A stretch of 64,000 nucleotides of DNA from Panopea generosa (lineage: Eukaryota > Mollusca > Bivalvia > Adapedonta > Hiatellidae). Under the pieces are notes generated by a model that saw nothing but the letters and a program-made list of their open reading frames with translations, ran no database searches and was not told where the DNA came from. Positions 4,601 through 58,295 of the stretch are shown piece by piece (position 1 is the first letter of the stretch; each line of letters starts with the position of its first letter). Where the stretch lies: positions 2,655,920 through 2,719,919 of the forward strand of contig CM055905.1 of assembly GCA_029582155.1 (NCBI GenBank), in the 5' to 3' direction. A program made the translations under genes and the position numbers.

Positions 4601-7600
4601 CAGTTTGACCAATTCGTCTAGTAGGATAAGACCTGCCTGTAGGACAGGACATATGAGTTAAGTTCTGTGTTAACATGTACTATAGAACCAAATATACAAC
4701 CAATTCTGGATCCACCTTTTCTGGATCATCTTTGATTCATCTAGGATAAGACCTGCCTGTAGGACAGGACATACGAGTTAAGTTCTGTGTTAACATGTAC
4801 TATAGAACCAAATATACAACCAGTTCTGGATTCACCTTTTCTGGATCATTTTTTTATTCATCCAAGATAAGACCTGCCTGTAGGACAGGACATACGAGTT
4901 AAGTTCTGTGTTAACATGTACTATAGAACCAAATAAACAACCAATTCTCTGGATCATTTTTTATTCATCCAGGGTAAGACCTGCCTGTAGGACAGGACAT
5001 ACGAGTTAAGTTCTGTGTTAACATGTACTATAGAACCAAATATACAACCAGTTCTGGATTCACCTTTTCTGGATCATTTTTTTATTCATCCAGGATAAGA
5101 CCTGCCTGTAGGACAGGACATACGAGTTAAGTTCTGTGTTAACATGTACTATAGAACCAAATATACAACCAGTTCTGGATTCACCTTTTCTGGATCATTT
5201 TTTTATTCATCCAGGATAAGACCTGCCTGTAGGACAGGACATACGAGTTAAGTTCTGTGTTAACATGTACTATAGAACCAAATATACAACCAGTTCTGGG
5301 TTCACCTTTTCTGGATCATTTTTTTATTCATCCAGGATAAGACCTGCCTGTAGGACAGGACATACGAGTTAAGTTCTGTGTTAACATGTACTATAGAACC
5401 CGATATATAAGTGCGACATATTTGCATGTAGTAGAACTACTGTTGATTTGTAATAGACTCATAAAACCGAGTTGTGTTCCTTGGTTACATTCTGGAATTT
5501 CAAGTTTTTCCAACTCAAGTAAAGCTGGTGGTAGTTATGCAGTTGTTGTGGCCTCTATCCCTAGCTGGGCCCAAAACCACACTCAGTACTGCTTCTACTA
5601 GGTAAAACTACATATGAAGTGCATCAAACATCAATGCATTAAGTAGTTATAAAGTATGACGTACAACAAAGTGACAGCAGTTCAAAAAACTAAGTTTTTG
5701 GTTAAACAAAACTTGGCTCTCTTTTCCCTGTCATAACAGCCTACACCGATCCGGTATAGATAATATTAACACCATTAAAACATCATTGGTTGTTAATCAA
5801 TACTGGGTAAACTTTCTATTGACATGAGATTGTTTTTTATTGCAACGCATTCTGTATTTCAACACTCTTTTTTCTGTAAAATTTATGCTATTGTGATCAA
5901 ACACACGTCAAATATAGTAAATACAGTAAGGTATTCGTGTATTAAAAAGATACATTGAAAGCCCCGATTGCAATTTAGGTTATAACTCTGTTTAATTCCA
6001 AATCAGCAGTAGATCTACTTTTACACCATGCATATGTATCACACTTTAACAGGAATATGGTCGCAAGATGTGTGTGCATAAACTCCCATAAAATATATAA
6101 TATTCAAACAGCAAGAGATATGTGTATTCATATTGTGCGAGGTAATATCAAGCATACACGTATGTGTAGTTCAATACAAATATTTACCCTTAACACTTTT
6201 TTAACATGAAACGACACACATACACATAGTTATATCTGACATATGTTCGTAATCGGGTATGCAAAATAGAAGCGGGGTGGTAGCCAAGTGGATAGCGTAT
6301 TGGCCGCTCACGCTAGAGGTTACGGGTTCAATCCATCTCGATCTGTTGGCCTCTCTAAAACAACATTGAGTGCTGGTTCTACCTGGGAAGCGGTCTTGGG
6401 AGCATTTCATATAATCTCTGAGCTAATTACGCAATTCGAGCTAAAATACATTAATATACACTAAAATAGATAAACATGTATGTGTTTAACCGTGACAATA
6501 AATGGCGACATATTTACCTGGTGACTGAGAAGCATGCCCACGGTTATATTGCCCTTTCCCTTTTGTCCAAACTCCGGCCAGTAGTCAGCCACCGGTCTAT
6601 TGTAGTCCAGTAAGCCCCTAAAACAAGAACCGATACATTATGTCTGGTTGGCCTAACCGTGAAAAGTATTAGTCACCCGGTTTATTCACAGCCTTGTCCA
6701 TAATCCGGGTATATGGACATTTATAGGTTAAACTTTATCAAATTTTAAATTTAAACAGCGGTGTTTGTTAAGTTAGGTTATACACATACGTGTGTATACA
6801 TATCTTTTAGCCGAAGGCTATGTGATAGTGCTGTGTCCGTCGTTTGTCGTCAACAATTGGCTACAAACGACATAATTTCTTGTAACATCACGTGTAATGA
6901 TGTCGTTTGAAGCCAATGGTTGAAGACAGATGACATCATTTCTATAACAGTATGACAATTTTCACCAAATTGTGTGAAGTATTGTTGCATGAAGCTCTCT
7001 GAAGTTGTTACCCTGGAGGCAAATTTAGCCCAGTCCCAGGGGCGTACCAGTTTTTCTTCAAATTTTCAAAAAACTTCTTGTATGAAATTACAAGTCCTGG
7101 ATCATTGTGATTTAGCATGTTGTATCATATAATCATTCTTTTATCAGAGTTGTTCAAGTCATGGCCCTATATTCCGTATTGGCCCCATCTGGGGAACTTA
7201 TCAGTTTAACAGACGGAAATTGTGATTGAACAATCTTTTCTCAAGGCGGACCAACAAAATGTGTTCATACTTAGTAAAAATGATCCAAATGAATTGGGGT
7301 TTCCAGTTTGTTAAACTTAAGGGGCTAGGGACTGTTTGGGCTCATTAAGGCGACTTTATGTTTGACATAGAAATACATCTATTAGACATTTTGGAAACTA
7401 TTCCATTCTTTTTGTGCCTTGGGCATTGCTTATGCATAATAGTTGAGGATTGAACTCTTTAGAGGGGATTTGCTACCATAACAAGAGGCCTGTAGGCCTT
7501 AACGGTCACCTGATTATCCAAATAATATTCATATAAGTCTATTCAGTCATAAGAAATATAAAATATTTGTCAATTCCTCTTATATAGATTTAGTAAAGTA

Positions 7601-10600
7601 GGATTCTTAAAGTTTATCTTGAATATGACTGTTTTGGCCCCACCCGCCCCTAAGACCTCATAGAGTGAGGGGCCATGAAATTCACATAGGTATTAACCGT
7701 CATGTTAGCAAAAACAAATCTCACCAAAAAACAAATTTGTATTTCTGAGTGCTTCCTATAATCAGAAGAAGAGTTTCAAAAGTTACCTTTAATTTTTTAG
7801 GCCCCACCACCAGGGCCAGACCGTGAGTCCAGGGAAAATCACAATTTCTGTAAGGGACCCATATGTGTTCATAATTATACTCACTATTTGTTTCCTAGTG
7901 CTTCCTATATTAAGAAGAAGATGTTTTAATAAATATATCCATATGTTGAAATCCTATGAAAGTCACTTTTTTAACACCAGTGATGTCTTATTGCAGTATA
8001 TGCTATGTCTACTTGTGATCTTCTCATTTGCAGCAATAAATCACAACCACTAAGTTTACCTTGAATTTGACTGTTTTGGCCCCGCCCCTAAGGCCCCAGG
8101 GGGTGGAGACCATGCAATTCACAAATTTGATTCACCCTTAGGTACCAAACCTGCATACAATATTTCGTTAAAATTGAGCTTACGTTTTTTCAGAAGTCGA
8201 AAATGTCAATTGTTTACGAATGAACTAAAAAATGTTAGGTCCCACCCCCAGGACCAAACCGCGAGACCCAAGGACATAAATTCATATTTTTATAAAGGAC
8301 CCATATATGTCCATAATCATGCTCATCATTTGTTTCACAGTACTACCTATATTAAGAAGAAGATTTTTAAAGTTTACCTTGAATCTGACAGTTTTGGCCT
8401 CATCCAAATGTCCCAAAGGGGTGGGGAACATGCAATTCACAATTTTGATTCACCCTTAGGTACCAAAGCTGCGAGATTTCATTACGATTGAACTTAAGAA
8501 GTCTAAAATGCCAGTTGTTTACGGAAGCACGACGCACACCACACGACGACGGAGAAAAGGCGATCGCAAAAGTTTCATTGGGACAAAATCTCAGGTGACC
8601 TAAAAAAAGCAAGCAGGACCCCAAAAAGGGATAAAATTGGGAATTTTCTCTTCTTCTCGTAAACTGATAATCATATTGTTTATATTTAGTATAAATGATC
8701 CATATAAACAATGTTTTTTAAAATCATTTATAAGAGCTTAACGTTTGATTCGGTATAGTAAGACATTTTTACGTGGGAATGCTATAGGAATTGGTTCACA
8801 CATTTTTCTATAAATTATTCATCGGCTTAGTCCATTTCAAATCGAAAAGAAGGTAACATCAGGTGATCGACTTAGGCGCATTTGTATCTTTAGTTTATTA
8901 AAGCGTTCAACCTTTGAACCATACATCATTTTCATACGTTTCTACATGTAAATCATACACTATCATGGTTTTCTAAATATAAACAATATATATATATACA
9001 ATACGCGTATATATAGTTTACGTTTTTCATTTATAGATCATACAAAATATTTTTACCTTTCTACTTGTCAAAGAATACACCGTCATGCTTTTCTATACGT
9101 GAACCATATATATCTTAACTTTTCTACTCGAGAATAATACATCATCTTACATTTTTATTGATAAACCATAAAACATCTTACATACGTATGGACCATATAA
9201 TTCTACATGTAGGTCATATATAATCTTATTTTTCTACTGGTGCACCATACAACATATCACTTTTCTTCTTGTGATTCATACATAATCTTTCCTTTCTACT
9301 TGTGAGCCATACGTCATCTTACTTTTCTACTTGTGGACCATACATAATCTTACATTTCTACTTGTAAACCATACATAATCTTACATTTCTACTTGTAAAC
9401 CATATATAATCTTACTTTTCTACTTGTGCACCATATGACATATCACTTTTCTTCTTGTGAATCAAACATAGTCTTACGTTTCAATTTTAAAACCATACGT
9501 CATAATCTTACTGTTCTACTTGTGAACCTATCATCATGTTCCTTTTCTACTTGTGAACAATACATCATCCTTCTTTTCTACTTGTGAACCATACATCATC
9601 CTCCTTTTCTACTTGTGAACCATACATCATCCTTCTTTTCTACTTGTGAACCATACATCATCCTCTTTTTCTACTTGTGAACCAACCATCATCCTCCTTT
9701 TCTACTTGTGAACCATACACAATCCTCCTTTTCTACTTGTAAACCATACATCATCATCCTTTTCTACTTGTGAACCATACATCATCATCCTTTTCTACTT
9801 GTGAACCATACAGCATCCTTCTTTTCCACTTGTAAACCATGCATCATCCTCCTTTTCTACTTGTGAACCATACATCATCCTCCTTTTCTACTTGTGAACC
9901 ATACATCATCCTCCTTTTCTACTTGTGAACCATACATCATCCTCATTTTCTACTTGTGAACCATACATAATCCTCCTTTTCTACTTGTGAACCATACATC
10001 ATCCTCCTTTTCTACTTGTGAACCATACATCATCCTCATTTTCTACTTGTGAACCATACATCATCCTCCTTTTCTACTTGTGAACCATACATCATCCTCC
10101 TTTTCTACTTGTGAACCATACATCATCCTCATTTTCTACTTGTGAATCATACATAATCCTCCTTTTCTACTTCTGAACCATACACAATCTTACTTTTCTA
10201 CTTGTAAACCATACATCATCATCCTTTTCTACTAGTGAACCATACATAATCCTCCTTTTCTACTTGTGAACCATACATAATCTTCCTTTTCTACTTGTGA
10301 ACCATACATCATCCTCCTTTTCTACTTGTGAACCATACATCATCCTCCTTTTCTACTTGTGAACCATACATCATCCTTCTTTTCCACTTGTAAACCATAC
10401 ATCATCCTCCTTTTCTACTTGTGAACCATACAGCATCCTTCTTTTCCACTTGTAAACCATGCATCATCCTCCTTTTCTACTTGTGAACCATACATCATCC
10501 TCCTTTTCTACTTGTGAACCATACATCATCCTCCTTTTCTACTTGTGAACCATACATCATCCTCCTTTTCTACTTGTGAACCATACATCATCCTCATTTT

Positions 10601-13600
10601 CTACTTGTGAATCATACATAATCCTCCTTTTCTACTTGTGAACCATACACAATCTTACTTTTCTACTTGTAAACCATACATCATCATCCTTTTCTACTAG
10701 TGAACCATACATAATCCTCCTTTTCTACTTATGAACCATACATAATCCCCCTTTTCTACTTGTGAACCATACATCCTCCTCCTTTTCTACTTGTAAACCA
10801 TACATAATCTTACTGTTCTACTTGTGAACCAACCATCATCATCCTTTTCTACTTGTGAACCATACATCATCCTCCTTTTCTAATTATGAACCATACATAA
10901 TCCCCCTTTTCTACTTGTGAACCATACATCCTCCTCCTTTTCTAATTATGAACCATACATAATCCCCCTTTTCTACTTATGAACCATACATAATCCCACT
11001 TTTCTACTTGTGAACCATACATCCTCCTTCTTTTCTACTTGTAAACCATGTATCATCCTCCTTTTCTACTTGTGAACCATACATCATCTTCATTTTCTAC
11101 TTGTGAACCATACATAATTCTCCTTTTCTACTTGTGAACCATACACAATCTTACTTTTCTACTTGTAAACCATACATCATCATCCTTTTCTACTTGTGAA
11201 CCATACATCATCATCCTTTTCTACTTGTGAACCATACATCATCCTCCTTTTCTACTTGTGAACCATACATAATCCTCCTTTTCTACTTATGAACCATACA
11301 TAATCCCCCTTTTCTACTTGTGAACCATACATCCTCCTCCTTTTCTACTTGTAAATCATACATAATCTTACTGTTCTACTTGTGAACCAACCATCATCAT
11401 CCTTTTCTACTTGTGGACCATACATAATCTTCCTTTTCTACTTATGAACCATACATTATCCCCCTTTTCTACTTATGAACACTATATAATCCCTCTTTCC
11501 TACTTGTGAACCATACATCATCCTCCTTTTCTACTTGTTAGCCATACATCATCTTACTTTTCTATTTTTAAACCATACATCATAATACTTTTCTACTTGT
11601 GAAGCATACACAATCTTACTTTTCTACTTGAAACCTTACATAATCTTACTTTTCTACTTGTAACCATATCTAAATTTACTTTTCTACTTGAAACCATACA
11701 TAATCTTACTTTTCTACTTGTAACCATATATAAATTTACTTTTCTACTTGAAACCTTACATAATCTTACTTTTTTACTTGTTACCATACATAATCTTACT
11801 TTTTTACTTGTTACCATACATAATCTTACTTTTCCACTTGTAAACCATGCATCATCCTCCTTTTCTACTTGTGAACCATACATCATCCTCCTTTTCTACT
11901 TGTGAACCATACATCATCCTCCTTTTCTACTTGTGAACCATACATCATCCTCATTTTCTACTTGTGAATCATACATAATCCTCCTTTTCTACTTGTGAAC
12001 CATACACAATCTTACTTTTCTACTTGTAAACCATACATCATCATCCTTTTCTACTAGTGAACCATACATAATCCTCCTTTTCTACTTGTGAACCATACAT
12101 AATCTTACTGTTCTACTTGTGAACCAACCATCATCATCCTTTTCTACTTGTGAACCATACATCATCCTCCTTTTCTAATTATGAACCATACATAATCCCC
12201 CTTTTCTACTTGTGAACCATACATCCTCCTCCTTTTCTAATTATGAACCATACATAATCCCCCTTTTCTACTTATGAACCATACATAATCCCACTTTTCT
12301 ACTTGTGAACCATACATCCTCCTTCTTTTCTACTTGTAAACCATGTATCATCCTCCTTTTCTACTTGTGAACCATACATCATCTTCATTTTCTACTTGTG
12401 AACCATACATAATTCTCCTTTTCTACTTGTGAACCATACACAATCTTACTTTTCTACTTGTAAACCATACATCATCATCCTTTTCTACTTGTGAACCATA
12501 CATCATCCTCCTTTTCTACTTGTGAACCATACATAATCCTCCTTTTCTACTTATGAACCATACATAATCCCCCTTTTCTACTTGTGAACCATACATCCTC
12601 CTCCTTTTCTACTTGTAAATCATACATAATCTTACTGTTCTACTTGTGAACCAACCATCATCATCCTTTTCTACTTGTGGACCATACATAATCTTCCTTT
12701 TCTACTTATGAACCATACATTATCCCCCTTTTCTACTTATGAACACTATATAATCCCTCTTTCCTACTTGTGAACCATACATCATCCTCCTTTTCTACTT
12801 GTTAGCCATACATCATCTTACTTTTCTATTTTTAAACCATACATCATAATACTTTTCTACTTGTGAAGCATACACAATCTTACTTTTCTACTTGAAACCT
12901 TACATAATCTTACTTTTCTACTTGTAACCATATCTAAATTTACTTTTCTACTTGAAACCATACATAATCTTACTTTTCTACTTGTAACCATATATAAATT
13001 TACTTTTCTACTTGAAACCTTACATAATCTTACTTTTTTACTTGTTACCATACATAATCTTACTTTTTTACTTGTTACCATACATAATCTTACTTTTCTA
13101 CTTGTAACCATAGATAATCTTACTTTTCTACTTGAAACCTTACATAATCTTACTTTTCTACTTGTAACCATGCATAATCTTACTTTTCTACTTGTTACCA
13201 TAAATAATCTTACTTTTCTACTTGTAACCATACATAATCTTACTTTTCTACTTGTAACCATAGATAATCTTACTTTTCTACTTGAAACCTTACATAATCT
13301 TACTTTTCTACTTGTAACCATGCATAATCTTACTTTTCTACTTGTTACCATAAATAATCTTACTTTTCTACTTGTAACCATACATAATCTTACTTTTCTA
13401 CTTGTAACCATACATAATCTTACTTTTCTACTTGAAACCTTACATAATCTTACTTTTCTACTTGTAACCTTACATTATCTTACTTTTCTACTTGTAACCA
13501 TGCATAATCTTACTTTTCTACTTGTAACCTTACATTATCTTACTTTTCTACTTGTAACCATGCATAATCTTACTTTTCTACTTGTTACCATAAATAATCT

Positions 13601-16600
13601 TACTTTTCTACTTGTAACCATACATAATCTTACTTTTCTACTTGTAACCATAGATAATCTTACTTTTCTACTTGAAACCTTACATAATCTTACTTTTCTA
13701 CTTGTAACCTTACATTATCTTACTTTTCTACTTGTAACCATGCATAATCTTACTTTTTTACTTGTAACCTTACATTATCTTACTTTTCTACTTGTAACCA
13801 TAGATAATCTTACTTTTCTACTTGTAACCATACATAATCTTACTTTTCTACTTGTAACCATGCATAATCTTACTTTTCTACTTGTAACCTTACATTATCT
13901 TACTTTTCTACTTGTAACCATACATAATCTTACTTTTCTACTTGTAACCATACATAATCTTACTTTTCTACTTGTAACCTTACATAATCTTACTTTTCCA
14001 CTTGTAACCTTACATAATCTTACTTTTCTACTTGTAACCTTACATAATCTTACTTTTCTACTTGTAACCTCATAATCTTACTTTTCTACTTGTAACCATA
14101 TATAATCTTACTTTTCTACTTGTAACCTTACATAATCTTACTTTTCCACTTGTAACCTTACATTATCTTACTTTTCTACTTGTAACCATACATAATCTTA
14201 CTTTTCTACTTGTAACCTTACATTATCTTACTTTTCTACTTGTAACCATACATAATCTTACTTTTCTACTTGTAACCTTACATAATCTTACTTTTCTACT
14301 TGTAACCTTACATTATCTTACTTTTCTACTTGTAACCTTACATTATCTTACTTTTCTACTTGTAACCATACATAATCTTACTTTTCTACTTGTAACCTTA
14401 CATAATCTTACTTTTCCACTTGTAACCTTACATTATCTTACTTTTCTACTTGTAACCATACATAATCTTACTTTTCTACTTGTAACCATATATAATCTTA
14501 CTTTTCTACTTGTAACCTTACATTATCTTACTTTTCTACTTGTAACCATACATAATCTTACTTTTCTACTTGTAACCATACATAATCTTACTTTTCTACT
14601 TGTAACCATACATAATCTTACTTTTCTACTTGTAACCTTACATAATCTTACTTTTCTACTTGTAACCATACATAATCTTACTTTTCTACTTGTAACCATA
14701 CATTATCTTACTTTTCTACTTGTAACCATACATAATCTTACTTTTCTACTTGTAACCATGCATAATCTTACTTTTCTACTTGTAACCTTACATTATCTTA
14801 CTTTTCTACTTGTAACCATACATAATCTTACTTTTCTACTTGTAACCATACATAATCTTACTTTTCTACTTGTAACCATACATAATCTTACTTTTCCACT
14901 TGTAACCATACATAATCTTACTTTTCCACTTGTAACCTTACATTATCTTACTTTTCTACTTGTAACCATAGATAATCTTACTTTTCTACTTGTAACCTTA
15001 CATTATCTTACTTTTCTACTTGTAACCTTACATAATCTTACTTTTCTACTTGTTACCTTACATTATCTTACTTTTCTACTTGTAACCATACATAATCTTA
15101 CTTTTCTACTTGTAACCATGCATAATCTTACTTTTCTACTTGTAACCTTACATTATCTTACTTTTCTACTTGTAACCATACATAATCTTACTTTTCTACT
15201 TGTAACCATACATAATCTTACTTTTCTACTTGTAACCATGCATAATCTTACTTTTCTACTTGTAACCATGCATAATCTTACTTTTCTGCTTGTAACCTTG
15301 CATTATCTTACTTTTCTACTTGAAACCATACATAATCTTACTTTTCTACTTGAAACCATACATAATCTTACTTTTCTACTTGTAACCATGCATAATCTTA
15401 CTTTTCTACTTGTAACCTTGCATAATCTTATTTTTCTACTTGTAACCATGCATAATCTTACTTTTCCACTTGTAACCATACATGATCTTACTTTTCCACT
15501 TGTAACCTTACATAATCTTACTTTTCCACTTGTAACCTTACATTATCTTACTTTTCTACTTGTAACCTTACATAATCTTACTTTTCTACTTGTAACCATG
15601 CATAATCTTACTTTTCTACTTGTAACCTTACATTATCTTACTTTTCTACTTGTAACCATACATAATCTTACTTTTCTACTTGTAACCATGCATAATCTTA
15701 CTTTTCTACTTGTAACCATGCATAATCTTACTTTTCTACTTGTAACCTTGCATTATCTTACTTTTCTACTTGAAACCATACATAATCTTACTTTTCTACT
15801 TGAAACCATACATAATCTTACTTTTCTACTTGTAACCATATATAATCTTACTTTTCTACTTGAAACATACATAATCTTACTTTTCTACTTATAACCATAC
15901 ATAATCTTACTTTTCTACTTGTAACCATAGATAATCTTACTTTTCTACTTGTAACCATACATAATCTTACTTTTCTATTTGTAACCATACATAATCTTAC
16001 TTTTCTACTTGTAACCTCATAATCTTACTTTTCTACTTGTAACCATACATAATCTTACTTTTCTACTTGTAACCATGCATAATCTTACTTTTCTACTTGT
16101 AACCATGCATAATCTTACTTTTCTACTTGTAACCATGCATAATATTACTTTTCTACTTGTAACCATAGATAATCTTACTTTTCTACTTGAAACCATACAT
16201 AATCTTACTTTTCTACTTGTAACCATACATAATCTTACTTTTCTACTTGTAACCATGCATAATCTTACTTTTCTACTTGTAACCATGCATAATCTTACTT
16301 TTCTACTTGTAACCTTACATTATCTTACTTTTCTACTTGAAACCATACATAATCTTACTTTTCTACTTGTAACCATACATAATCTTACTTTTCCACTTGT
16401 AACCATACATAATCTTACTTTTCCACTTGTAACCTTACATTATCTTACTTTTCTACTTGTAACCATACATAATCTTACTTTTCTACTTGTAACCATACAT
16501 AATCTTACTTTTCCACTTGTAACCATACATAATCTTACTTTTCCACTTGTAACCTTACATTATCTTACTTTTCTACTTGTAACCATACATAATCTTACTT

Positions 16601-18442
16601 TTCTACTTGTAACCTTACATTATCTTACTTTTCTACTTGTAACCATATATAATCTTACTTTTCTACTTGTAACCATGCATAATCTTACTTTTCTACTTGT
16701 AACCTTACATTATCTTACTTTTCTACTTGTAACCATACATAATCTTACTTTTCTACTTGTAACCATACATAATCTTACTTTTCTACTTGTAACCATATAT
16801 AATCTTACTTTTCTACTTGTAACCATACATAATCTTACTTTTCTACTTGTAACCATGCATAATCTTACTTTTCTACTTGTAACCATGCATAATCTTACTT
16901 TTCTACTTGTAACCTTACATTATCTTACTTTTCTACTTGTAACCATACATTATCTTACTTTTCTACTTGTAACCATGCATAATCTTACTTTTCTACTTGT
17001 AACCTTACATAATCTTACATTTCTACTTGTAACCTTGCATAATCTTACTTTTCTACTTGTAACCTTACATAATCTTACTTTTCTACTTGTAACCTTACAT
17101 AATCTTACTTTTCTACTTGTAACCATGCATAATCTTACTTTTCTACTTGTAACCATACATAATCTTACTTTTCTACTTGTAACCATACATTATCTTACTT
17201 TTCTACTTGTAACCTTACATTATCTTACTTTTCTACTTGTAACCATACATTATCTTACTTTTCTACTTGTAACCTTACATAATCTTACTTTTCTACTTGT
17301 AAACCATACATAATCTTACTTTTCTACTTGTAACCATGCATAATCTTACTTTTCTACTTGTAAACCATACATAATCTTACTTTTCTACTTGTAAACCATG
17401 TGTAATCTTACCTTTCCACCATCGTTGCAATAACAATTGCGACGATTCCCTTAGAAGCTGAGTATGCCATGGTCATAGTGTCTTCCCTCCAGGGTCGCTG
17501 TGCCTCCACGTCCGCGTACCCTCCCCACATGTCGAACACACATTCTCCTTTGTGGAACACAGAGAACGCTCCTCCGCGTTCCTTGCCAATTTTAAGGTTC
17601 TCTCTGGAATATGTTACAGCAGAAGAAAATAGAAATTCTGAATGGGATTTACAATACATGATATGTTGTGCAGCATTTACTTCAAATTTATGAACGAACT
17701 TTGAAATAATGAATGAAATAGGATCGTGATATACGGAGGAGGACAACGGAATAGCATTTTCTTAAGTATTAAGCAAGCATGGAATTCAGTTGTAGTGGTG
17801 CAATCTTGAGTGGAAACGCCGTCCTTCTGCAAACACATGACTGTGACTGTCTAACTTTTGAGTTTAAATTGATAGACTTTCGAATACAACACCTCAGTGA
17901 TGAGAAATTTATCTTGAGACAGTTCCTTAAAGAGCTCGAGGACAAACATCAAGGATCTCAAAACTGTACTCGAATCCGCGACCTCAGCGGTGAGTGGAAA
18001 GCGGTCATTAGGCTACAACGCCTTTAACCGCTTGGCCACAGAGGACACATAAAAACATATATGAGCATACAATGGCCAATAGATGATTTGTAAAATAAGC
18101 ACAAATGGCTCCTTCGATTTCATTAAACGTTTGCCAGTGTCTATACAAACATAACCGTTGTCCTTAATGGCTCTCCACTGAGATTATTAGCGTCATACGA
18201 TCGATAATTACTTACTGACTATGCCAACCGCACATTGTGTAAGTGTATTAGTTGAATGCGTGTATAATATGCTATTTATATATCAGACTGTATTATATAA
18301 TAATATGATAAAACTTTAAATGAGACCGGTCATGTATGCAGCTTAATGATTGCACAAGAGCCGGTTTAGGTTGGGTCTGGTTGGGTCTGGTTGGGGTGAA
18401 GCATATACCTTGCTCCAGAACTGCCAGTACATATTTTTCTTT

Positions 18443-18487: not shown

Positions 18488-20173
18488 ATTTGAGATACCC
18501 CCCCCCCCCCCCACACACACACACACAACAACTGAAACGCTCAAGACACCATGCCTTTGACATTAATGGATCCATGTATACTGACTCATACACGAATGTA
18601 TCCATGTATACTCACTCATACACGAATGTATCCATGTATACTGACTCATACACGAATGTATCCATGTATACTGACTCATACACGAATGTGTCCAGGTATA
18701 CTGACTCATACACCAATGGATCCATGTATAGTGTTTCATACACGAATGTGTCCAGGTATACTGACTCATACACCAATGGATCCATGTATACTTAATCATA
18801 CACGAATGTGTCCATGTATACTGACTCATACACAAATGGATCCATGTATAGTGATTCATACACGAATGTGTCCAGGTATACTGACTCATACACTAATGGA
18901 TCCATGTATACTTAATCATACACGAATGGATCCATGTATACCGACTCATACACGAATGTGGTCAGGTATACTGACTCATACACCAATGGATCCATGTATA
19001 GTGATTCATACACGAAATTAGTCCAGGTATACTGACTCATACACGAATGGATCCATGTATACTTACTCATACACGAATGTGTCCAGGTATACTGACTCAT
19101 ACACCAATGGATCCATGTATACTGACTCTTACACGAATGTGTCCAGGTATACTGACTCATACACCAATGGATCCATGTATACTGACTCTTACACGAATGT
19201 GTCCAGGTATACTGACTCATACACCAATGGATCCATGTATACTTAATCATACACGAATGTGTCCATGTATACTGACTCATACACAAATGGATCCATGTAT
19301 AGTGATTCATACACGAATGAGTCCAGGTATACTGACTCATACACCAATGGATCCATGTATACTGACTCATACACGAATGTGTCCAGGTATACTGACTCAT
19401 ACACGAATGGATCCAGGTATACCGACTCATACACGAATGTGTCCAGGTATACTGACTCATACACCAATGGATCCATGTATACCGACTCATACACGAATGT
19501 GTCCAGGTATACTGACTCATACACGAATGTGTCCATGTATACTGACTCATACACCAATGGATCCAGGTATACTGACTCATACACCAATGGATCCATGTAT
19601 ACACTGACGGTTGAACTAACGGACTTGTGAAATACATGAATGATTGTATGCATATTGACTTATACGCGAATGATTACATGAATATATTGACAGATGAATC
19701 AAGAACTTGTTAAATACATGCATGTTGCATCCATATTGACTGATACGGTTTCATGTGTAAGTATTGACTTATGGAATTGTGACATACACGAATGGTTGCA
19801 TGCATACTGGAAGATACACGAATGGTTTTATTTATATACATGAATATATTGACAGATGAACTTGTGAAATACATGCATGTTTCAGCCATATTGACTGATA
19901 CGCGAATGGTTGTATAATGATAGAAGAACGAATGGTTTCATGTATATTCATTAACTCTTGAACTTACCAATGGTTACATGTATACTTATTGATGAGCAGA
20001 GAAAAGGAAAAGATAACACAGTTAATTTACCTGAATTTGTCAGCGACTGGTTTGAAAGCCGGGTGATAATATCCATCTAAAACTATCGGTAAATCCACAT
20101 CAAACAAACTCTGTAAGTATGAATAAGTAACCAAGATCAAAACCACAAACAAACTTATTTTTATAAATCCCAT
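1502..20173 (-). CDS. Serine beta-lactamase-like protein (S12/PF00144, LACTB-like), 3'-partial, five exons
   Basis: Five exons join in frame: 20031-20173, 17412-17603, 6518-6617, 4531-4636 and 1502-1624 (143+192+100+106+123 nt, 221 codons plus one base). All introns are GT-AG, with phases 2, 2, 0, 1 and 1. The product starts with a hydrophobic signal or anchor segment (MGFIKISLFVVLILVTYSYL), then a 'LDGYYHPAF' block, a GGAFSVFHKG strand, the 'WGGYADVEAQRPW' block and the nucleophile motif S96-A-S-K99. 'VTVGMLLSHQAGL'-type sequence crosses the exon 3/4 junction (here ITVGMLLSHQ|AGL). Y186-H-A sits 90 residues after S96, where the family has its second catalytic Tyr; the usual third residue Asn is Ala. 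The C-terminal KTG/HxG region and stop are missing and must lie left of the window. Function is probably peptidase- or esterase-like at a membrane or secreted; the substrate is unknown. Metazoan copies of this family are normal, so recent transfer is not implied. Confidence 0.93.
2408..2660 (+). repeat. tRNA-Leu-like SINE, family B, with duplicated head
   Basis: The A-box-like TGGCCGAGTGGTCCAAG is followed by a long variable-arm-like segment ending CCTCTCACCACTGA. The head occurs twice (near 2413 and near 2502) before a single body 'gtttgtaccgaaaacttcatg ... ggtggttctaccc'. The body is also recognisable at 46140-46320. It lies in intron 4 of the beta-lactamase-like gene. Confidence 0.6.
2739..3518 (+). 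mobile_element. Internally deleted mariner/Tc1-type transposon
   Basis: Imperfect terminal inverted repeats of about 28 bp bound a 780-bp element: the left end reads CAAGGTATGTCCAAAAAGTA and the right end, reverse-complemented, CGAGGTACCTCCCAAAAGTA; both continue ATAGGAC. A TA lies just left of the element, but the right flank is not a clean TA. The interior holds only the N-terminal part of a mariner-like transposase. It sits in intron 4 of the beta-lactamase-like gene, opposite to its transcription. Confidence 0.75.
3126..3464 (+). pseudogene. Mariner-like transposase fragment
   Basis: The reading frame from ATG 3126 (inside a longer open frame from 3078) gives about 112 residues. It shows the N-terminal mariner helix-turn-helix pattern: 'EIWSVVKSCVGCNMTPQDTL' and 'YWWYKRVSNGETKVTDHQRS'-like sequence with RSGRLK. 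After 'GRLK' it leaves the family and runs directly into element 3' sequence, so the catalytic DDD/E domain is deleted. It cannot encode an active transposase. Confidence 0.75.
4531..4636 (-). CDS. Beta-lactamase-like gene, exon 4
   Basis: The acceptor CCTACAG is followed by GCAGGTCTTATCC and the donor is CCAGCCG|GTAAGAG. The exon encodes A146-GLILLDELVKLRDIKDDP through 'AAQETLWPA' and one base of G181. Phase is 0 in and 1 out. Its acceptor and first bases are the parent of the 121-bp tandem repeat just upstream in transcript order. Confidence 0.92.
4703..5396 (-). repeat. 121-bp tandem repeat built from the exon 4 acceptor and part of exon 4 (six extra copies)
   Basis: Each unit holds, on the minus strand, the intron end '...TGTCCTGTCCTACAG', then GCAGGTCTTATCCT, a deletion of the middle of exon 4, then GATCCAGAAAAGGTG. 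Copies of the acceptor junction fall at 4756, 4877, 4984, 5105, 5226 and 5347; spacing is 121 bp except one 107-bp interval. The authentic junction is at 4636, 120 bp away. All copies precede the real exon in the transcript. Confidence 0.93.
5400..6270. other. Intron 3, no further gene seen
   Basis: AT-rich intronic sequence of the beta-lactamase-like gene. I see no exon, RNA gene or clear repeat here apart from the flanking arrays. Confidence 0.5.
6272..6475 (+). repeat. tRNA-derived SINE, family A (best copy)
   Basis: The tRNA-like head GTGGTAGCCAAGTGGATAGC acts as A box and TTACGGGTTCAATCC as B box. The body 'aacaacattgagtgctggttctacc' and the tail 'gagctaaaatacattaata' follow. It is inserted in intron 3, antisense to the gene and about 40 bp upstream of the exon 3 donor. 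Confidence 0.75.
6518..6617 (-). CDS. Beta-lactamase-like gene, exon 3
   Basis: The acceptor is TTGTTTTAG|GGGC and the donor CACCAG|GTAAATA. The exon encodes R112 (split) then GLLDYNRPVADYWPEFGQ through 'ITVGMLLSHQ', the region between the SxxK motif and the AGL block in this family. Exactly 33 codons follow the split Arg. Confidence 0.93.
7480..8606. mobile_element. Interspersed non-autonomous element with GGTCACCTGA / TCAGGTGACC ends
   Basis: Starts 'aacaagaggcctgtaggcc' with GGTCACCTGA near 7505 and ends with the inverse TCAGGTGACC near 8591. Inside, a block 'ttgactgttttggccccgcc ... accatgaaattcaca' recurs three times (about 7615, 8060, 8380). No transposase frame is present. This style of element is widespread in molluscs; the family name is unknown to me. 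Confidence 0.55.
8930..13075. repeat. Intron 2 minisatellite, distal part, mainly 31-bp units
   Basis: Head-to-tail copies of a 31-bp unit typified by CTACTTGTGAACCATACATC followed by ATCCTCCTTTT. The left edge (8930-9290) is degenerate. A block at about 10.44-11.83 kb is duplicated at about 11.83-13.1 kb: the rare variant GAACACTATATAATCCCTCT is at 11477 and 12741. Most units here have CATCCTCC where the proximal array has AATCTTAC. The array lies inside intron 2 of the beta-lactamase-like gene. Confidence 0.95.
13076..17410. repeat. Intron 2 minisatellite, proximal part, 30-bp units (about 145 copies)
   Basis: Highly homogeneous 30-bp units, TAATCTTACTTTTCTACTTG then TAACCATACA, ending exactly at the exon 2 donor of the minus-strand gene. 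On the transcribed strand each unit reads GAAAAGTAAGATTA, against GAAAGGTAAGATTA at the real junction. Because 30 is divisible by 3, the array creates open frames up to about 410 codons on the plus strand; these are repeat artefacts, not genes. Confidence 0.96.
17412..17603 (-). CDS. Beta-lactamase-like gene, exon 2 (SxxK nucleophile)
   Basis: The acceptor is ATATTCCAG before 17603 and the donor is GTGGAAAG|GTAAGATT at 17411. The exon encodes residues R48 to E111 plus two bases, with GKERGGAFSVFHKGECVF, the WGGYAD block and S96-ASK99-G. The SxxK Ser is the acylated nucleophile in this family. The donor directly abuts the 8.5-kb satellite. Confidence 0.95.
17945..18050 (-). repeat. tRNA-Leu/Ser-like SINE head, family B
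   Basis: The reverse complement reads TGGCCAAGCGGTTAAAGGCG as A box, a variable-arm-like 'CACTCACCGCTGAGG', then B box GCGGATTCGAGTAC. No perfect acceptor stem is seen, so a SINE or pseudo-tRNA is preferred over a functional tRNA. It lies in intron 1. Confidence 0.6.
18447..18526. repeat. Simple repeats (TG)n, poly-C, (AC)n
   Basis: A (TG)n tract of about 37 bp is followed by 'aatatttgagatac', a run of about 14 C, and (AC)n. It is in intron 1, next to the 30-bp array. Confidence 0.95.
18565..19605. repeat. Intron 1 minisatellite, 30-bp unit with 60-bp alternation
   Basis: About 34 copies of TCCATGTATACTGACTCATA followed by CACGAATGTG. Two variants tend to alternate ('tccaggtata...caccaatgga' and 'tccatgtata...cacgaatgtg'), giving a partial 60-bp higher-order period. 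Decayed relatives (atgcatattgacttatacgcgaatg) continue to about 20000. Open frames on both strands are by-products of the 30-bp period. Confidence 0.95.
20031..20173 (-). CDS. Beta-lactamase-like gene, exon 1 (start and signal/anchor)
   Basis: ATG at 20173-20171 opens a frame of 47 codons plus two bases and ends at AAATTCAG|GTAAATT. The first 20 residues are hydrophobic after MGFIK, typical of a signal peptide or type II anchor. 'DLPIVLDGYYHPAFKPVADK' then leads into exon 2 with a split Arg codon. This start is chosen because the hydrophobic segment follows at once and no upstream in-frame exon is seen. Confidence 0.9.
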
Positions 20174-30978: not shown

Positions 30979-31785
30979 TACCCCCGACAAACGAAGTTTG
31001 AGGGGGTATATTGGAGTCACCCTGTGGTCGGTCTGTCGGTCTGTCGGTCGGTCTGTCCGTTGCAATTTTCCTTGTCCGGAGCATCACTTGAAAAGTACTG
31101 GATGGAATTTCATCAAACGTCATACAATGGTAGAATATAATGAGAGGAAGTGCAGTGTACAAGAAACATAACTCTTTTCTTGCTAATTACAGAGTTATTG
31201 CCCTTTGATATTTTTTCTTGTCCGGAGCATAACTTGAAAAGTACCGGATGGAATTTCATCAAGCTTCATACAATGGTAGAATATAATGAGAGGAAGTGCA
31301 GTGTACAAGAAACATAACTCTATTCTTGCTAATTACAGAGTTATTCCCCTTTGATATATTTCCCTTGTCCGGAGCATTACTTTAAAAGTACTGGATGGAA
31401 TTTCATCAAACTTCATACAATGGTAGAATATAATGAGAGGAAGTGCAGTGTACAAGGAACATAACTCTATTCTTGCTAATTACAGAGTTATTGCCCTTTG
31501 ATTTATTATCCTTGTCTGGAGCATTACTTTTAAAGTACTGGATGGAATTTCATCAAACTTCATACAATGGTAGAATATAATGAGAGGAAGTGCAGTGTTT
31601 AAGAAACATAACTATATTCTTGCTAATTACAGAGTTATTGCCCTTTGATTTATTTCCCTTGTCTGGAGCATTACTTTTAAAGTACTGGATATAATTTAAT
31701 AAAACTTCATACAATGGTAAACCATTTTCTGTCATGGCGGCGTTCGGGGGTATTCATCACCTTCAGTGATAGGTCTAGTTTTATA
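30979..31785. mobile_element. Interspersed element with five internal 148-bp repeats
   Basis: Left end CCCCCGACAAACGAAGTTTG followed by a GTCGGTCTG-rich stretch; right end GGCGTTCGGGGGTATTCATC. Between them the block beginning CTTGTCCGGAGCAT recurs near 31070, 31219, 31367, 31513 and 31660, a period of 146-149 bp. The C-run/G-run ends and internal tandem repeats match a class of non-autonomous element common in molluscs. No protein is encoded. Confidence 0.65.
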
Positions 31786-39545: not shown

Positions 39546-39940
39546 ATAGATACGCTACATATAAAGCTACATTTAGAATAATAGCATTTGACATATAAAT
39601 ACCGGTAACATTCAGTTGACAATTTTAAACATACAAATAGTAGAGCATAGCACATAAAAAGCATAAACGCATAAACATTGAATCTTATATCTGATATAAT
39701 AGAAAATAAATATTTAATAAAAGATAGAGTTATCTAACTTGAAAGGAATTAAAATTTTAAATGAGCAAGATAGTTATGAATATGACTAGCAAAATATTTG
39801 GGAACTAAACAGTTTAAAAAAGTATTTAATTTTATTTCATTATCAACAATGATGCATTCACAAGAAAATGTGCAAGCCTGGGTGCTGTGGCAGGAAGGCA
39901 GCTACGCCACTGAACATGATCGGCATTTCTGCAATCAAGT

Positions 39941-41247
39941 ACATACTAATGTAGATAGTACGTATATAGTACATACTAAAGTAGATAGCACGTATATAGT
40001 ACATACTAAAGTAGATAGCACGTATATAGTACATACTAAAGTATATAGCACGTATACAGTACATACTAAAGTAGATAGCACGTATATAGTATAAACTAAA
40101 TTACCTAGCACGTATAAAGTACATACTAAAGTAGATAGCACGTATACAGTACATACTAAAGTAGATAGCACGTATACAGTAGTACTAAAGTAGATAGCAC
40201 GTATATAGTACGTACTAAAGTAGATAGCACGTATACAGTACGTACTAAAGTAGATAACACGTATATAGTACATACTAGAGTAGATAGCACGTATATAGTA
40301 GTACTAAAGTAGATAGCACGTATACAGTACATACTAAAGTATATAGCACGTATACAGTACATACTAAAGTAGATAGCGCGTATACAGTACATACTAAAGT
40401 AGATAACACGTATATAGTACATACTAAAGTATATAGCACGTATACAGTAGTACTAAAGTAGATAGCACGTATATAGTACATACTAAAGTACATAGCACGT
40501 ATACAGTACAAACTAAAGTAGATAGCAAGTATACGGTACATACTAAAGTAGATAACAGGTATATAGTACATACTAAAGTAGATAGCACGTGTACAGTAGT
40601 ACTAAAGTAGATAGCACGTAAACAGTACATACTAAAGTAGATAACACGTATACAGTACATACTAAAGTAGATAGCATGTATATAGTACGTACTAAAGTAG
40701 ATAACAAGTATACAGTACATACTAAAGTAGATAGCACGTATACAGTAGTACTAAAGTAGATAGCACGTATACAGTACATACTAAAGTAGATAGCGCGTAT
40801 ACAGTACATACTAAAGCATACTAAAGTAGATGGCACGTATACAGTACATACTAAAGTAGATGGCACGTATACAGTACATACTTAAGTAGATAGCACGTAT
40901 ACAGTACATACTAAAGTAGATAGCACGTATATAGTACGTACTAAAGTAGATAGCACGTATACAGTACGAACTCAAGTAGATAGTGCGTATATAGTACGTA
41001 CTAAAGTAGATAGCGCGTATACAATACGTACTAAAGTAGATAGCGCGTATATAGTACGTACTAAAGTAGATAGCGCGTATACAGTACGTACTAAAGTAGA
41101 TAGCGCGTATACAGTACGTACTTAAGTAGATAGCACGTATGTAGTACGTACTAAAGTAGATAGCATGTATACAGTACGAACTAAAGTAGATAGCACGTAT
41201 ACAGTACGTACTAAAGTAGATAGCATGTATATAGTACATACTAAAGT
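39941..41247. repeat. 30-bp tandem repeat with 149-bp higher-order period
   Basis: About 43 copies of AGTACATACTAAAGTAGATA followed by GCACGTATAC. A shortened junction AGTAGTACTAAAG recurs at 40179, 40298, 40446, 40595 and 40744, defining blocks of five units minus one base. Later units favour GCGCGTATAC and GTACGTAC. Confidence 0.95.
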
Positions 41248-41430
41248 AATGGAAAACAAACATAAAGAGCACTTCGATTTATCGTACTTCTCGTCACGAA
41301 ATGGTGCTTAACAAATCTCAACTATTATCTTAGAAAATTAGGAGCCTAGAAACTATAGCTTTAGACACATTCAAAATAATAAATATAAAAAAAATCTCTG
41401 ATCTTCCTTAATATTAAACATAATTCTTAC

Positions 41431-52202: not shown

Positions 52203-55178
52203 GTATTGGTTTTATGACAATTATATTATAATGTATCTGTTTGTTTTATGTTGTTCGAGAGAAATATTTACCCGTGCGGTGTTAATTATGCAAGACTGTT
52301 TGCAAAACATTTTTCTGGATATGCAACACTATAGTCAGTGAATGTTAACTTTTTGAATGGGGTTTAACGACATTTTCAACACATTTCAGGTTATGTATTG
52401 CAATTTATCCAGTTTTTATTAATGGAGGAAGACATCAGAATGAATCTTGTGTAGAACCACTGTCCTTCGGCAAGCTTAAGTAACTGGCAGACTTTCTTAT
52501 ATCTTTCTTGACATCAGGTGAAGCTTGGGATCGAACTAGTGACATCTGACATATGCGACCAACACCAACACTGCCACACCTCCTACTGACTTAAACAACT
52601 AACCTAGTTTTCATATTTAATTTTGACATAAAGCACTTAGATAATCTATAATGTTATCTTAAGCTACATATTTCATAAGTTATTACCTTTTCTTTTTATT
52701 TAACTAGAGATCATGCTAGTTTTGAGAATATGAATAATTTTGTTTGTCATATGACAGCGAATAGGCGAACTATAATGCCTGATATCCATTTACAAGGGTT
52801 ATGCCCCTTTTTAAAAGATTAACAAAATAATAAAAGGTCTGCACATTTCACTGGAATTATCTTTATATCATATTTGCATAATGTATATACTTTTTATGCC
52901 CCCCTCCCCCGACTCCCTCTCCCTGGGGTGGCATATAGTAATTGCAGTGTCCGTCTGTCCTTCCATCCGGTATTTCGTGTCCGGCCTGTAACTATGTCAA
53001 GCATAGATGAATTTTGTTTAATCTTGCTACAAATGATCAACATAACATGACGAGGTGTCGCAAGTAAGACCCGCACCCGTGGTCAAGGTCACACTTGAGT
53101 TTGTTTGACAACAATTTGAGTCAAGTGAGATTTCATGTCCGGTATGTAACTTTGTCACCTATGGATAAATTTCAAAAACTCTTTGCTCAGTTCATCAGCA
53201 TGACATTGCGGCGTGTCGAGTGTAAGACCCACACCCATACCTCAAAGGTCAAGGTCACTTTTTTAGTTTGTTTGACAACACTGAGTCTGTGTGAGACTTC
53301 ATGTCCGGCCTGCAACATTGTAATGCATAGATGGATTTTATAAATACTTCCTACAAATGATCAGCATAACATGGCGATGTGTCGGGCGTAAAACTCAGAT
53401 TCACACTTTAAAGATCACAATTAACTTTGTTTGACGACACTTTCAGTCTGTTTGAGATTTCGTGTAACATTGTCACCTATGGGTAAATTTCAAAAACACA
53501 TGGCTCTGTTCATCAGCGTGACATGACCGCGTGTCGCTGGTAAAACCCACCCACATCCGTACCTCAAAAGTCAAGGTCAAAATTTGATTTTGTTTGACAA
53601 CACTTTGAGTCTGTGTGAGATTTTGTGTCCTGTCCTGTAACTTTGTCATGGATAGATGGATTCTATAAATACTTGTTACAAATGATAAACTAAACATGAC
53701 AACGTGCCTCACATTGCACCAAGACTCCCACTTCATAGGTCAAGGTCACAATTTAACTTTGTTTGACAACACTTCATTCTGTTTGAGATTTCATGTCAAG
53801 TCTGTAACTTTGTCACCTATGGATAAATAAAACAAATAAATTGGCTCAGTTGATCAACATGACATGATGAAGTGCCGCGTGTAAGACCTAGAATGTGACA
53901 CTTACCAGTGACATTTCTTGTTATAGATAAAAGGCTACATATTTGTGTGTGCCAGCAGTTTATTTAGGGGTATCCGTCACATGCTTGTGCTTTTTATTGT
54001 TTCTTCAATATTTATCCAGTTAGCGATATTCATTAATAACTGGTTGTTTGAAAGGTGATTTTGTTACCATCTCGTTCATTGATTAGATGTTTAAAATTCA
54101 TTTAACCCACACAGGCGATTAATTTACATGTAACCTTATAGGCAGTGTGTCAAGAAAATTCGCCGCAAATGTCAAAAATTAAAAGTAACTTTAGAATGAA
54201 ATCAAAGTATATAACTATTGATTACAGCTTAAATACAAACAATTTGGCATTTCAAATCCAAAAGAAAAAAACACATAACAAAATAGTATTTTAATTGGAG
54301 TGTAATCCTAATTCTAAAATTAAACACCATGCATGCACTGCTTGACGCCCTTCACCTATATGACTACAAGATGCTAATATGAAATTAGAACAACCCAGCA
54401 TGTGCGCTGAATTTTATGTGTAAAGGGACATTACACTTGTGTAAAAGTTCAAATGTATTAATATCATATCTCAAATAAAAGAAGCTATATATGGCCAAAA
54501 AAAATTTAAAACTGCAAAAATCATCAGTTTGGTATGTTTAAGAATTGTTTATGAAATTTTTAAAACTAGTGTGACTTTCATAGAATCATGAAAAATATTA
54601 GGCCTAATTATTTTTTTAAAATTGATATCAAGATAGAATCTAGTAATACTGGGAGATTTTTTTCATATGCTTATACGTCCCCAGGTGCAATGGCTAATTT
54701 GATGCGTGAACATAGGTAAGAAGCTACTTCAACATTGTTGTGTGCCCATTTAAATTTTAATCATAAATGTTCTACTACATTTTGATTATTTTTTACTTGA
54801 AAGTAAATAATTATAATTCACACAGTAACACATAATTTGTAAAATCATGTATATAAAATAGGTAACATTTTAATAAATTAAATCAAGTATAAATCCACCA
54901 TGCTCTCATCCGGTAATGCAATAAACATTGTGACACATAGTAATTCAGTCTCTATACACGTACATGTATGTTTATGCAGGAGCCAGAAAACGGAAATTTG
55001 TCCAGGTGGAATGGGAACTTCCACTTTTGATGCCACTAGGCTGAATAAGAACTTGATGGGAAATTTTAATCCTGGTGTAATGATGTCAGGCGGATCCAGA
55101 AGCGGATCATTCGTAACGGGAAACTTTGTACCATCCTCTGGAACTGGAGGAAGCCTTGGAACAGGACAAAGCGGTTAA
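52148..55178 (+). CDS. Secreted glycine-rich protein, three exons, 94 aa (probably truncated)
   Basis: Exons 52148-52202, 54685-54715 and 54980-55178 (55+31+199 nt = 95 codons with stop) join at GT-AG introns of phases 1 and 2. The first exon is a signal peptide (MPSIIFILLFSLCWS). The second is tiny (GAMANLMREH). The third starts R-SQKTEICPGGMGTSTFDA and becomes Gly/Ser-rich, ending GTGGSLGTGQSG and TAA. The stop falls where the repeat consensus downstream has Gly-Phe-Gly, and the same glycine-rich repeat continues past it, so the ancestral protein was longer. Secretion and composition suit a structural or matrix protein (in a mollusc perhaps shell or byssus), which is inference. An assembly error at the stop is possible. 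Confidence 0.65.
52430..52595 (-). repeat. tRNA-derived SINE fragment (minus strand)
   Basis: The reverse complement has GGAGGTGTGGCAGTGTTGGT near the head, B box CTAGTTCGATCCC, and downstream 'gtccttcggcaagctt'-type sequence. Lies in intron 1 of the glycine-rich gene. Confidence 0.45.
52890..53945. mobile_element. Interspersed element with ~168-bp internal repeats, copy 1
   Basis: Begins TTTTTATGCCCCCCTCCCCC and 'ggtggcatatagtaattgca'; ends 'gtgacacttaccagtgacat' TTCTTGTT. Inside are repeated blocks 'cctgtaactttgtcatgcat', 'acaaatgatcaacataacat', 'gtgtcg..gtaagacccacac' and 'tcaaaggtcaaggtcac'. The copy at 55606-56170 has the same ends. No protein is encoded. Confidence 0.7.
54685..54715 (+). 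CDS. Glycine-rich gene, exon 2 (31 nt)
   Basis: Microexon between CGTCCCCAG and CATAG|GTAAGAAG. Phase 1 in, phase 2 out. Confidence 0.55.
54980..55178 (+). CDS. Glycine-rich gene, exon 3
   Basis: Acceptor TTTATGCAG|GAGCC. The codon phase matches exon 2, producing Arg-Ser-Gln. Open to TAA at 55176-55178. Confidence 0.65.
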
Positions 55179-55560
55179 AGTACCGGATCTGGAAGAACAG
55201 GAACAGGAAGTGGCACATCGAGTGGTGGATTTGGAACAGCAGTTTTGGTACCGGATCAGGAACTGGAGGTGGTACATCAAGTGGTGGATTCAGAACCAGC
55301 GGTTTTTGTACCGGATCTGAAAGTACAGGAACCAGAAGAGGTACATCAAGTGGTGGATTTGGAGCCAGAGGTTTTGGTACCATGTCTGGAAGTACAGGAA
55401 TTGGAAGTGGCACATCAAATGGTGGATTTGAAGTACAGGATCCGGAAGTGGCACATCAAGCAATGGATTTGGTTCCAGCGGTTTTGGTACCGACTCTGGA
55501 AGTACAGGAACAAGTAGTGGCACTTCAAGTGGTGGATTTGGAACCAGCGGTTTTTAGTGC
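55179..55560 (+). pseudogene. Broken 69-bp glycine-rich coding repeats
   Basis: Five to six copies of a 69-bp unit encoding GTGSGSTGTGSGTSSGGFGT-SGF when read in frame. The frame is interrupted by the TAA at 55176, by a shift near 55245 and by a deletion near 55430, and it closes at TAG near 55556. Third-position drift with retained Gly/Ser codons points to former coding. Continuous with exon 3 of the glycine-rich gene. Confidence 0.65.
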
Positions 55561-55605
55561 CATTTTTATTTGTTTTACATAGAAGTGGAATGAAGAGTCT
55601 GAATT

Positions 55606-56170
55606 TTTATACCCCCTAAAAAATTTTTGAGTGGCATATAGTAATCGCAGCGTCCGCCCGTCCATCTGCCCGTCCGTCCTTCCGTCCGGTATTTTGTTTC
55701 CGGCCTGTAACTTTCTCATGCATAGATGGATTTGTTGATACTTGCTACAAATGATCAACATAGTATAACGACGTGTCGCGAGTAAGACCCACACCCGTAC
55801 CTCAAAGGTCAAAGTCACAATTTGAGTTTGTTTGACAACACTTTGAGTTTGTGTGAGATTTCATTTCCAGCCTGTAACTTTCTCATGCATAGATGGATTT
55901 TGTTGATACTTGCTACAAATGATCAACATAACATGATGACGTGTCGCGAGTAAGACCCACACCCATACCTCAAAGGTCAAGGTCACAATTTGAGTTTGTT
56001 TGACAACACTTTGAGTTTGTGTGAGATTTCGTTTCTGGCCTGTAACTTTGTCATGCATTGATGGATTTTGTTGATACTTGCTACAAATAATCAACATAAC
56101 ATATCATATATTTTTATTTTCACAGACCATTTGGGGGGTATGTGACACTTAACAGTGACATTTCTTGTTT
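55606..56170. mobile_element. Interspersed element with ~168-bp internal repeats, copy 2
   Basis: Begins TTTTTATACCCCCTAAAAAA and 'gtggcatatagtaatcgcag'; ends 'gtgacacttaacagtgacat' TTCTTGTT. The 'cctgtaactttctcatgcat' block recurs at 55704, 55871 and 56039. It follows the glycine-rich repeats directly and separates them from the copies at 57604. Confidence 0.75.
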
Positions 56171-57600
56171 ACAAAATGTCTTATAATTTTCCAGAAACCT
56201 CTTTTATCATAAAATGGTAAATCGTTTAACAATTTTTATTAAAAACGTTTTCTTTATTAGCTTGTTTTTTATAATATTAACCTTATTTCTAGACTGCTTA
56301 TATTGATACCAATCATTTGTCTTTCCTGATGTAATTGCAATTTTCATTAGTATGTTCCTTATTTTCAAACATTTTCTGAATCGAACCAAGGCCTGTCGTT
56401 TGGACGAACAGTTACTAATGTAGATGGTAAACAAGTTTTAACAAATTCATTAAATATTTATATTATCTTGTCACATTCTTCATTAATAGAGCAGTGGTTT
56501 AAGTCCCAATCAAATGAGTGAACTTAAAAGTTTGCTTTATTGTATATCTTTTATATGTAGAATTGAACTCGTATGGAAATGGTGATATTATATACATTGC
56601 TATATTATCACTTATATTATCTGGAACTTCTACAGAACCAGCATTTCTATGGCATATCATATGGTACAATGATTGGATCAAGAATGGCTGTATTGCTGGT
56701 GGGTTCATTTATAGAATTAATGAGTGAGTTTAAGGTTAATGTATCTTTCAGGTTATGGAATGATGAGTTGAGAAGGGTTTCATTACAATAACCAATAAGT
56801 GGACGATATCTGTCATAGGCCTTCTCAATATTTGTATTCAGGTTATTGAAAAACGTATCTGCAATAGTATATTTTCATTTTTGATCTTGACATTTATCCA
56901 AATTGATTCGTTACAAAATTTCGCCTGGAATGAATGTTACTATTTGAAACATAAACAAGTATCCCCCTCCATGATTCGAACGGTCCTTTCCACAAAATAT
57001 ATAAAAATTCTCATTTAGTATTAAACTGTCATACCAAGGTGAGGCTCAGTAAAACAACGAACATCATGATGTAAAAGGTTTTCAGCAATAAGATTTATCT
57101 CATTTCTAATACGTCTAATACATGACTGTATTACAATGTAAAATCGATAAAACATGTGCATCGTTTGTGGGTTTGTGATTGCTCTCTATGTCTCCTGCAT
57201 TCAAAAGGAGCAGTAATAAATCTTAAAATCAACTTTACTTACAAAATCATTCAAAATTGTATCTACAAGAGAGAGAACTCTCATTATATTGTCTAATAAA
57301 ATCAATAAACCTTGAAAATAAGTTTACAATATGCCAATAAGTTACGACCATTAAATAGACCGATGGCGGCTCTTCATATACATATAAAATTGGTAACACT
57401 ACAGAAAGGCTCACACTGGAGAGAGCACCACCATGTCATGAACATATGCAAAAAAATTGAAAAATACTGGGAATGCCAGCCAGTACAAGAGAGATGAGAG
57501 TAGAAGTAAAGAATTGAGAGATAATCAAGGGAAAATAAAGTCTGTATTTGAAATACTTTGTATATACAAGTTTGAGTCAAGTAGGAGTATATTTAAGTTA
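56170..57600. other. No supported gene
   Basis: AT-rich, with short open frames only. No array or SINE recognised. Confidence 0.4.
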
Positions 57601-57603
57601 GTT

Positions 57604-57840
57604 TAAACCAGCGATTTTGGTACCGGATCTGAAAGTACAGGAACCGGAAGTGACACATCGAGTGTTAGATAGCGGTTTTGGTACCGGGTCTGGAAGTGGC
57701 ACACCAAGTGATGGATTTGGAACCAGAACGTACAGGAAGTGGAAGTGACACATTAAATGGATTTGGAACCAGCTGTTTCTTGTACCGGATCTGGAAGTAC
57801 AGGAATTTGAAGTTGTAGTTTAAGTTGTGGATTTGGAATC
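57604..57840 (+). pseudogene. Detached block of the same 69-bp glycine-rich repeats
   Basis: 'cagcgattttggtaccggat', 'gtacaggaaccggaagtgac' and 'ggatttggaaccagctgttt' repeat the unit of 55179-55560 with several indels and in-frame stops. No continuous frame remains. Confidence 0.65.
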
Positions 57841-57938
57841 GAATCCGAAAATGGTACCTCAGGGATTCGATCGAGTACGAAATGGGATGGACATTACACC
57901 GATACTTTAAGTATAATTGGTGGAAGTTCTATATCTGG

Positions 57939-58270: not shown

Positions 58271-58295
58271 AGCTGTTTTACATGTCCTAGTTAGA

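Follow-up and report, generated by a model that had tools for sequence, protein, structure and literature searches.

The window analysed here, a 64,000-nucleotide stretch of the Panopea generosa genome, carries on its minus strand a gene whose second intron is mostly taken up by a tandem array. The gene was assembled from the following parts, with the ends of exons 2 and 3 placed by splice motifs and reading frame.

Host gene, minus strand: PF00144 (serine beta-lactamase/esterase family), from a profile match of exons 2 and 3
20031..20111, minus strand: upstream exon of the same gene, reading ...GYYHPAFKPVADKF, with donor CAG|GTAAAT at 20030; located by motif search, 5' end guessed
17412..17603, minus strand: exon 2, 192 nt, ending ...MVER in phase 2 and carrying SASK; placed by phmmer and PF00144
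17406..17414, minus strand: true donor of intron 2, reading AAG|GTAAGA; the intron starts at 17411
17411..6618, minus strand: intron 2, 10,794 bp, phase 2
6618..8904, minus strand: remainder of intron 2 beyond the array, running to the acceptor TTGTTTTAG|GGGC at 6618, 2.3 kb from the array
6518..6617, minus strand: exon 3, which finishes the Arg codon and adds 33 residues, with donor CAG|GTAAAT

Joined, exons 2 and 3 match PF00144 with an E-value of 2e-30, residues 12-103 falling on profile positions 12-103, and this agreement of coordinates across the join makes the intron 2 donor credible. A phmmer search with exon 2 recovers the carboxylesterase 5gmx (E 1.8e-14), and its alignment with 7y3z runs without gaps through residue 70, reaching the exon end (...LMLVDR against ...ATMVER), which rules out an exon end built from the array as an exonised repeat. 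All three donors located in the gene begin with GTAA. Within intron 1, positions 17970-18050 hold what we take to be a likeness to a tRNA-derived SINE box.

The array was resolved by cyclic alignment, with the unit anchored by choice at intron position +1, into a first unit and three zones.

~8905-17411, minus strand: tandem array, 280 units of mostly 30-31 bp plus a flank remnant
17381..17411, minus strand: unit 1, a 31-bp form with CAC in place of the consensus TGT at columns 10-12
12884..17380, minus strand: units 2-151, homogeneous, mostly 30 bp; headed by GT in 149 of 150 and by GTAAG in 146 of 150
9543..12883, minus strand: units 152-259, largely 31 bp and resembling GGAGGATGA; donor GT retained by 24 of 108; holding most of a duplicated series of ~41-44 units
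8905..9542, minus strand: units 260-280, the old, divergent and decaying far edge; GT in 15 of 21, GTAAG in 9 of 21

Head-to-tail units of ~10-100 bp are a feature of minisatellites, and the array has it throughout; TRF reports 9215-17416, with a period of 30, 269.7 copies and 90% matches. Counted to ~8905, the 280 units make up 79% of intron 2. The first-pass annotation had placed an array at 8930-17420, starting exactly at the exon 2 donor, and both points hold within slightly shifted bounds: exon and array are directly joined, with unit 1 formed by intron +1..+31 and no gap between them. In the gene's sense the junction reads GTGGAAAG|GTAAGATTACACATGG. The commonest unit is GTAAGATTATGTATGG, and the form with TGCATGG that had been given as the repeat unit is a common variant with 25 exact copies. 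At the donor position the consensus unit reads AAAA|GT. Over the whole array, unit 1 included, GT heads 189 of 280 units, in-phase GTAAG 174 and GTAAGATTA 128. Counted in any register, GTAAG occurs 220 times on the sense strand of the array and 88 times in the rest of the window on both strands. A 21-base core, allowed up to 3 mismatches, has 240 matches in the window (200 of the 240 among the matches listed) and none in 100 dinucleotide shuffles. Between 12884 and 17380, an A at column 14, found in 49 of the 150 units 2-151, makes a second GTAAG in another register.

The zones differ in how far they have drifted and in how they were copied. Units 145-164 are identical to units 186-205, marking a block duplication, and across 10504-13093 (units 145-184 against 186-228) shifts of 41, 42 and 44 units bring 20, 12 and 7 consecutive identical units into register. 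The 31-bp TTTAC form is present at both ends of the array, in units 1, 2 and 4 and again in units 264 and 265, and may for that reason be ancestral; it also turns up in the middle block, where 17 of the 108 units have T at the column concerned, and so does not mark the ends alone. A division into two halves, the distal one altered and its decoy strength falling with distance from the exon, had been proposed from the sequence at first sight. The altered block is there, in units 152-259, and it is weak, but beyond it lies a third, mixed zone that is partly donor-like again, so that a steady fall of donor likeness is ruled out.

Local divergence increases with unit number (rank correlation rho 0.63, with a P-value that assumes independent units although the units are related). 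Mean differences from the nearest neighbours along the array are 1.7-2.2 in units 1-151, 3.7-4.7 in units 152-259, 8.0 in units 260-269 and 13.3 in units 270-280. As a rule, a tandem array is decayed at each of its two ends. Here this holds for the far edge, whereas the exon side ends sharply in homogeneous units, unit 1 differing from unit 2 at 3 positions, which suggests either that growth was concentrated beside the exon or that selection on the donor maintains this edge.

The array is apparently specific to the host-gene locus, as judged from a genome search. One exact 16-base variant, a probe blind to divergent relatives, was sought in the 1.474-Gb assembly (39 contigs) and found 28 times, 25 times in the array and 3 times elsewhere, where 1.1 matches are expected by chance (probability of at least three, 0.11); read backwards, the 16-base pattern has no match in the genome. 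The three outside matches lie at C12:47001013, C12:48354970 and C14:46165922, C12 being the contig that carries the window. With 25 of the 28 exact matches inside the array, the search speaks against a dispersed satellite. When viral contigs were scanned with an exact 21-mer, one match, L001, came back. The neighbourhood is rich in repeats of other kinds, ~39% of the window being tandem array (14 listed intervals, units of 16 to 168 bp), and arrays that touch exons may on that account be no rarity in this genome, which counts against seeding at the donor. Two further arrays of period 30, at 18565-19602 and 39938-41248, seem by eye to be unrelated. On the plus strand, open frames within 54882-58416 contain repeats rich in Gly, Ser and Thr, STGSGSGTSSNGFG among them, and may belong to a coding-repeat gene.

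In such a setting an unrelated minisatellite could by chance have come to adjoin the exon while holding GTAAG, and the ~39% of the window in tandem arrays lends this some room. We nevertheless hold such a coincidence to be highly improbable. The in-phase match covers the first 31 intron bases and so reaches beyond GTAAG; the comparison of donor and consensus suggested at first pass, run by cyclic alignment, gives 27 of 31 bases of unit 1 identical to the consensus used. Even before phase is considered, a donor-like unit on the sense strand has a chance of ~0.02: by a human splice-site table, 2.0% of 50,000 random 30-mers of window composition contain a site of at least 7.69 bits on the given strand. 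Nor do the neighbouring arrays supply such units. Ten of the 14 listed arrays, that is all except 4623-5407, 31065-31719, 55198-55540 and 55697-56103, were scored on both strands from their TRF consensuses, and only the present array reaches 7.69, on the sense strand of the gene, with none of the nine others exceeding 6.23.

On the exon side the likeness is weaker: the unit agrees with the exon at 6 of its final 8 bases, a score equalled by 1 of 88 other GTAAG sites and by 66 of 7600 GT sites in the window. The last codons of exon 2 are constrained by the protein, and the exon match is possibly microhomology. Taken together, the start of the array at +1 in donor phase, the local concentration of genome matches and the highest homogeneity lying beside the exon make it very probable, as far as sequence comparison can tell, that array unit and donor share a common descent.

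Descent leaves a choice of direction. We give about an even chance to the reading that the donor is the founder of the array, and among possible founders we prefer a wholly intronic one (+1..+31) over one spanning the junction, since it gives the A at -1 of later units without further change. The reverse order is plausible but on balance doubtful: the array would have been born inside the intron and spread to the exon, where one unit replaced the donor, making the present donor a descendant. Unit 1 is ordinary in its few differences from unit 2, a GTAAG unit could have substituted for the donor given that the located donors of the gene all start with GTAA, tandem arrays are plentiful in the window, and decay is greatest in the units farthest from the exon, as an internal origin predicts. 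Such a capture, however, needs a donor-like unit to have existed beforehand (~2% of random units) and to have been fused exactly at +1, and beside the exon there is no decayed trace of an earlier beginning of the intron. A relative with an array-free GTAAGATTACACATGGTTTACA at the start of intron 2 would tell against it.

How does the gene keep its true site among so many copies? Scoring each unit as a 5' splice site, as had been proposed, separates them clearly on the same human table, with pairing calculated against the 5' end of U1. The true donor, AAG|GTAAGA, scores 11.03 bits and pairs with U1 at -9.5 kcal/mol, whereas all 279 later units fall below it, reaching 7.69 bits at most, and none of the other GTs in intron 2 equals it; the donor of exon 3 reaches 8.91 bits. 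For U1 pairing, a typical copy gives -4.5 kcal/mol, and the strongest of the copies, unit 276 at the far edge, gives -6.8 kcal/mol. Typical copies read AAA|GTAAGA where the true donor has AAG|GTAAGA. The difference at the exonic -1 base had been noticed at first pass, and it holds for units 2-260, all of which lack the G; far-edge units 268 and 276 carry it. The idea that slippage between donors might be tolerated is contradicted by the reading frame, because a retained intron is read as VER and then at once TAA, so that use of an array copy cannot give the normal protein; the product would probably be removed by nonsense-mediated decay.

A row of weak donors might still serve a function, with its GTAAG sites binding U1 snRNP and thereby shielding a long intron from premature polyadenylation or titrating U1. 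In keeping with this, in-phase GTAAG is kept in well over half of all units and in nearly all of units 2-151 (174 of 280 and 146 of 150), and the sense strand of the array, 8506 bases long, has a single AATAAA and lacks ATTAAA, against two of each in the remaining 2287 intron bases. Several observations make such a platform unlikely. The typical copy pairs with U1 weakly when set against the true donor; GT has been lost in 84 of the 108 middle units, where columns 2, 4 and 8, which lie at the donor, are the most variable; and within units 2-151 most of the remaining columns vary as little as those of GTAAG, so that intact GTAAG there is explained by recent amplification, and its conservation was dropped as a sign of selection. 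The variable columns 2, 4 and 8 in units 152-259 fit a loss of unneeded or unwanted donors, but they are no test of it, because these units share few ancestors. The fullest version is in our estimate a long shot. In it the 5' splice site is prone to duplication and lengthens the intron from its first base, so that the donor both seeds and feeds its own minisatellite; past donors would remain as a graded record, and their weakened row would form a U1 snRNP platform, stronger or weaker according to copy number.

In a search of the open-access literature we found no array derived from or founded by a donor. Three known kinds come closest: introns in tandem arrays, arrays of dual-specific splice sites, and the gain of introns by tandem duplication. 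Human introns lying in tandem arrays of direct repeats were reportedly described by Zhuo et al. in PNAS in 2007, with both intron ends matching the repeat and the intron itself new. The present case resembles these in that a splice boundary lies inside a tandem array whose repeat carries splice-site sequence, but only the 5' end of the intron lies in the repeat and a further 2.3 kb separates the end of the array from the acceptor, so that it does not have the two repeat-borne boundaries of an intron born from a tandem array.

In UBC and VCX3A, tandem repeats contain dual-specific splice sites, the UBC units being coding and bounded by AGGT that can serve as donor or acceptor (PMC10809524). A splice-site motif in each unit of a tandem array is common to both systems; the present units, by contrast, are intronic and read AA|GT rather than AG|GT, and GGTAAG does not occur in the 8506-base array slice. 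With AGGT absent from the consensus unit as well, recursive or dual-specific sites are ruled out. In the AGGT model, tandem genomic duplication of an exonic AGGT makes a new intron (PMC3443670); the seed event proposed here likewise copies a stretch that includes a splice site, whereas the present intron, lying between conserved exon sequences, would only have grown. VNTR6-1 in TERT intron 6, a 38-bp repeat ~3.5 kb upstream of an exon with a reported splicing effect and a link to G-quadruplexes, is likewise a large intronic minisatellite (PMC11830802), but it differs in its G-quadruplexes and its distance from the exon, and derivation from a donor forms no part of the description in the sections of that source consulted.

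On the founder reading, to which we return, the array would be an apparently locus-specific minisatellite that owes its phase with the 5' splice site to having been seeded there, an account we rate as evenly poised. The seed would most likely have been a tandem duplication of ~31 bp at the start of intron 2 (+1..+31) that copied the donor; a brief resemblance of the exon end GTGGAAAG to the intronic GTAGAAAA may have primed it. Slippage, unequal exchange and block duplications would then have enlarged the array, mainly on the exon side, as older copies decayed deeper in the intron. With A and not G at -1 in nearly every copy, the exon 2 donor would have remained the strongest in the intron, which would explain why the gene was not broken when the array extended up to the exon, and any use of a copy would meet an immediate stop and probably nonsense-mediated decay. 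We judge the array to be tolerated and not selected for. The anatomy, phase, score ranking, divergence gradient, block duplication and stop codon are direct observations; the direction of descent, the way the array grew, nonsense-mediated decay and the lack of function are readings drawn from them.

Should the donor indeed be the founder, intron 2 would hold a layered record of intron growth from base +1. It would also offer a natural experiment in which the spliceosome chooses one donor among more than 100 near-copies, set apart chiefly by one exonic base. The locus would then bear on whether the G at -1 suffices to pick the true site, and on whether U1 is drawn to a succession of weak 5' splice sites.
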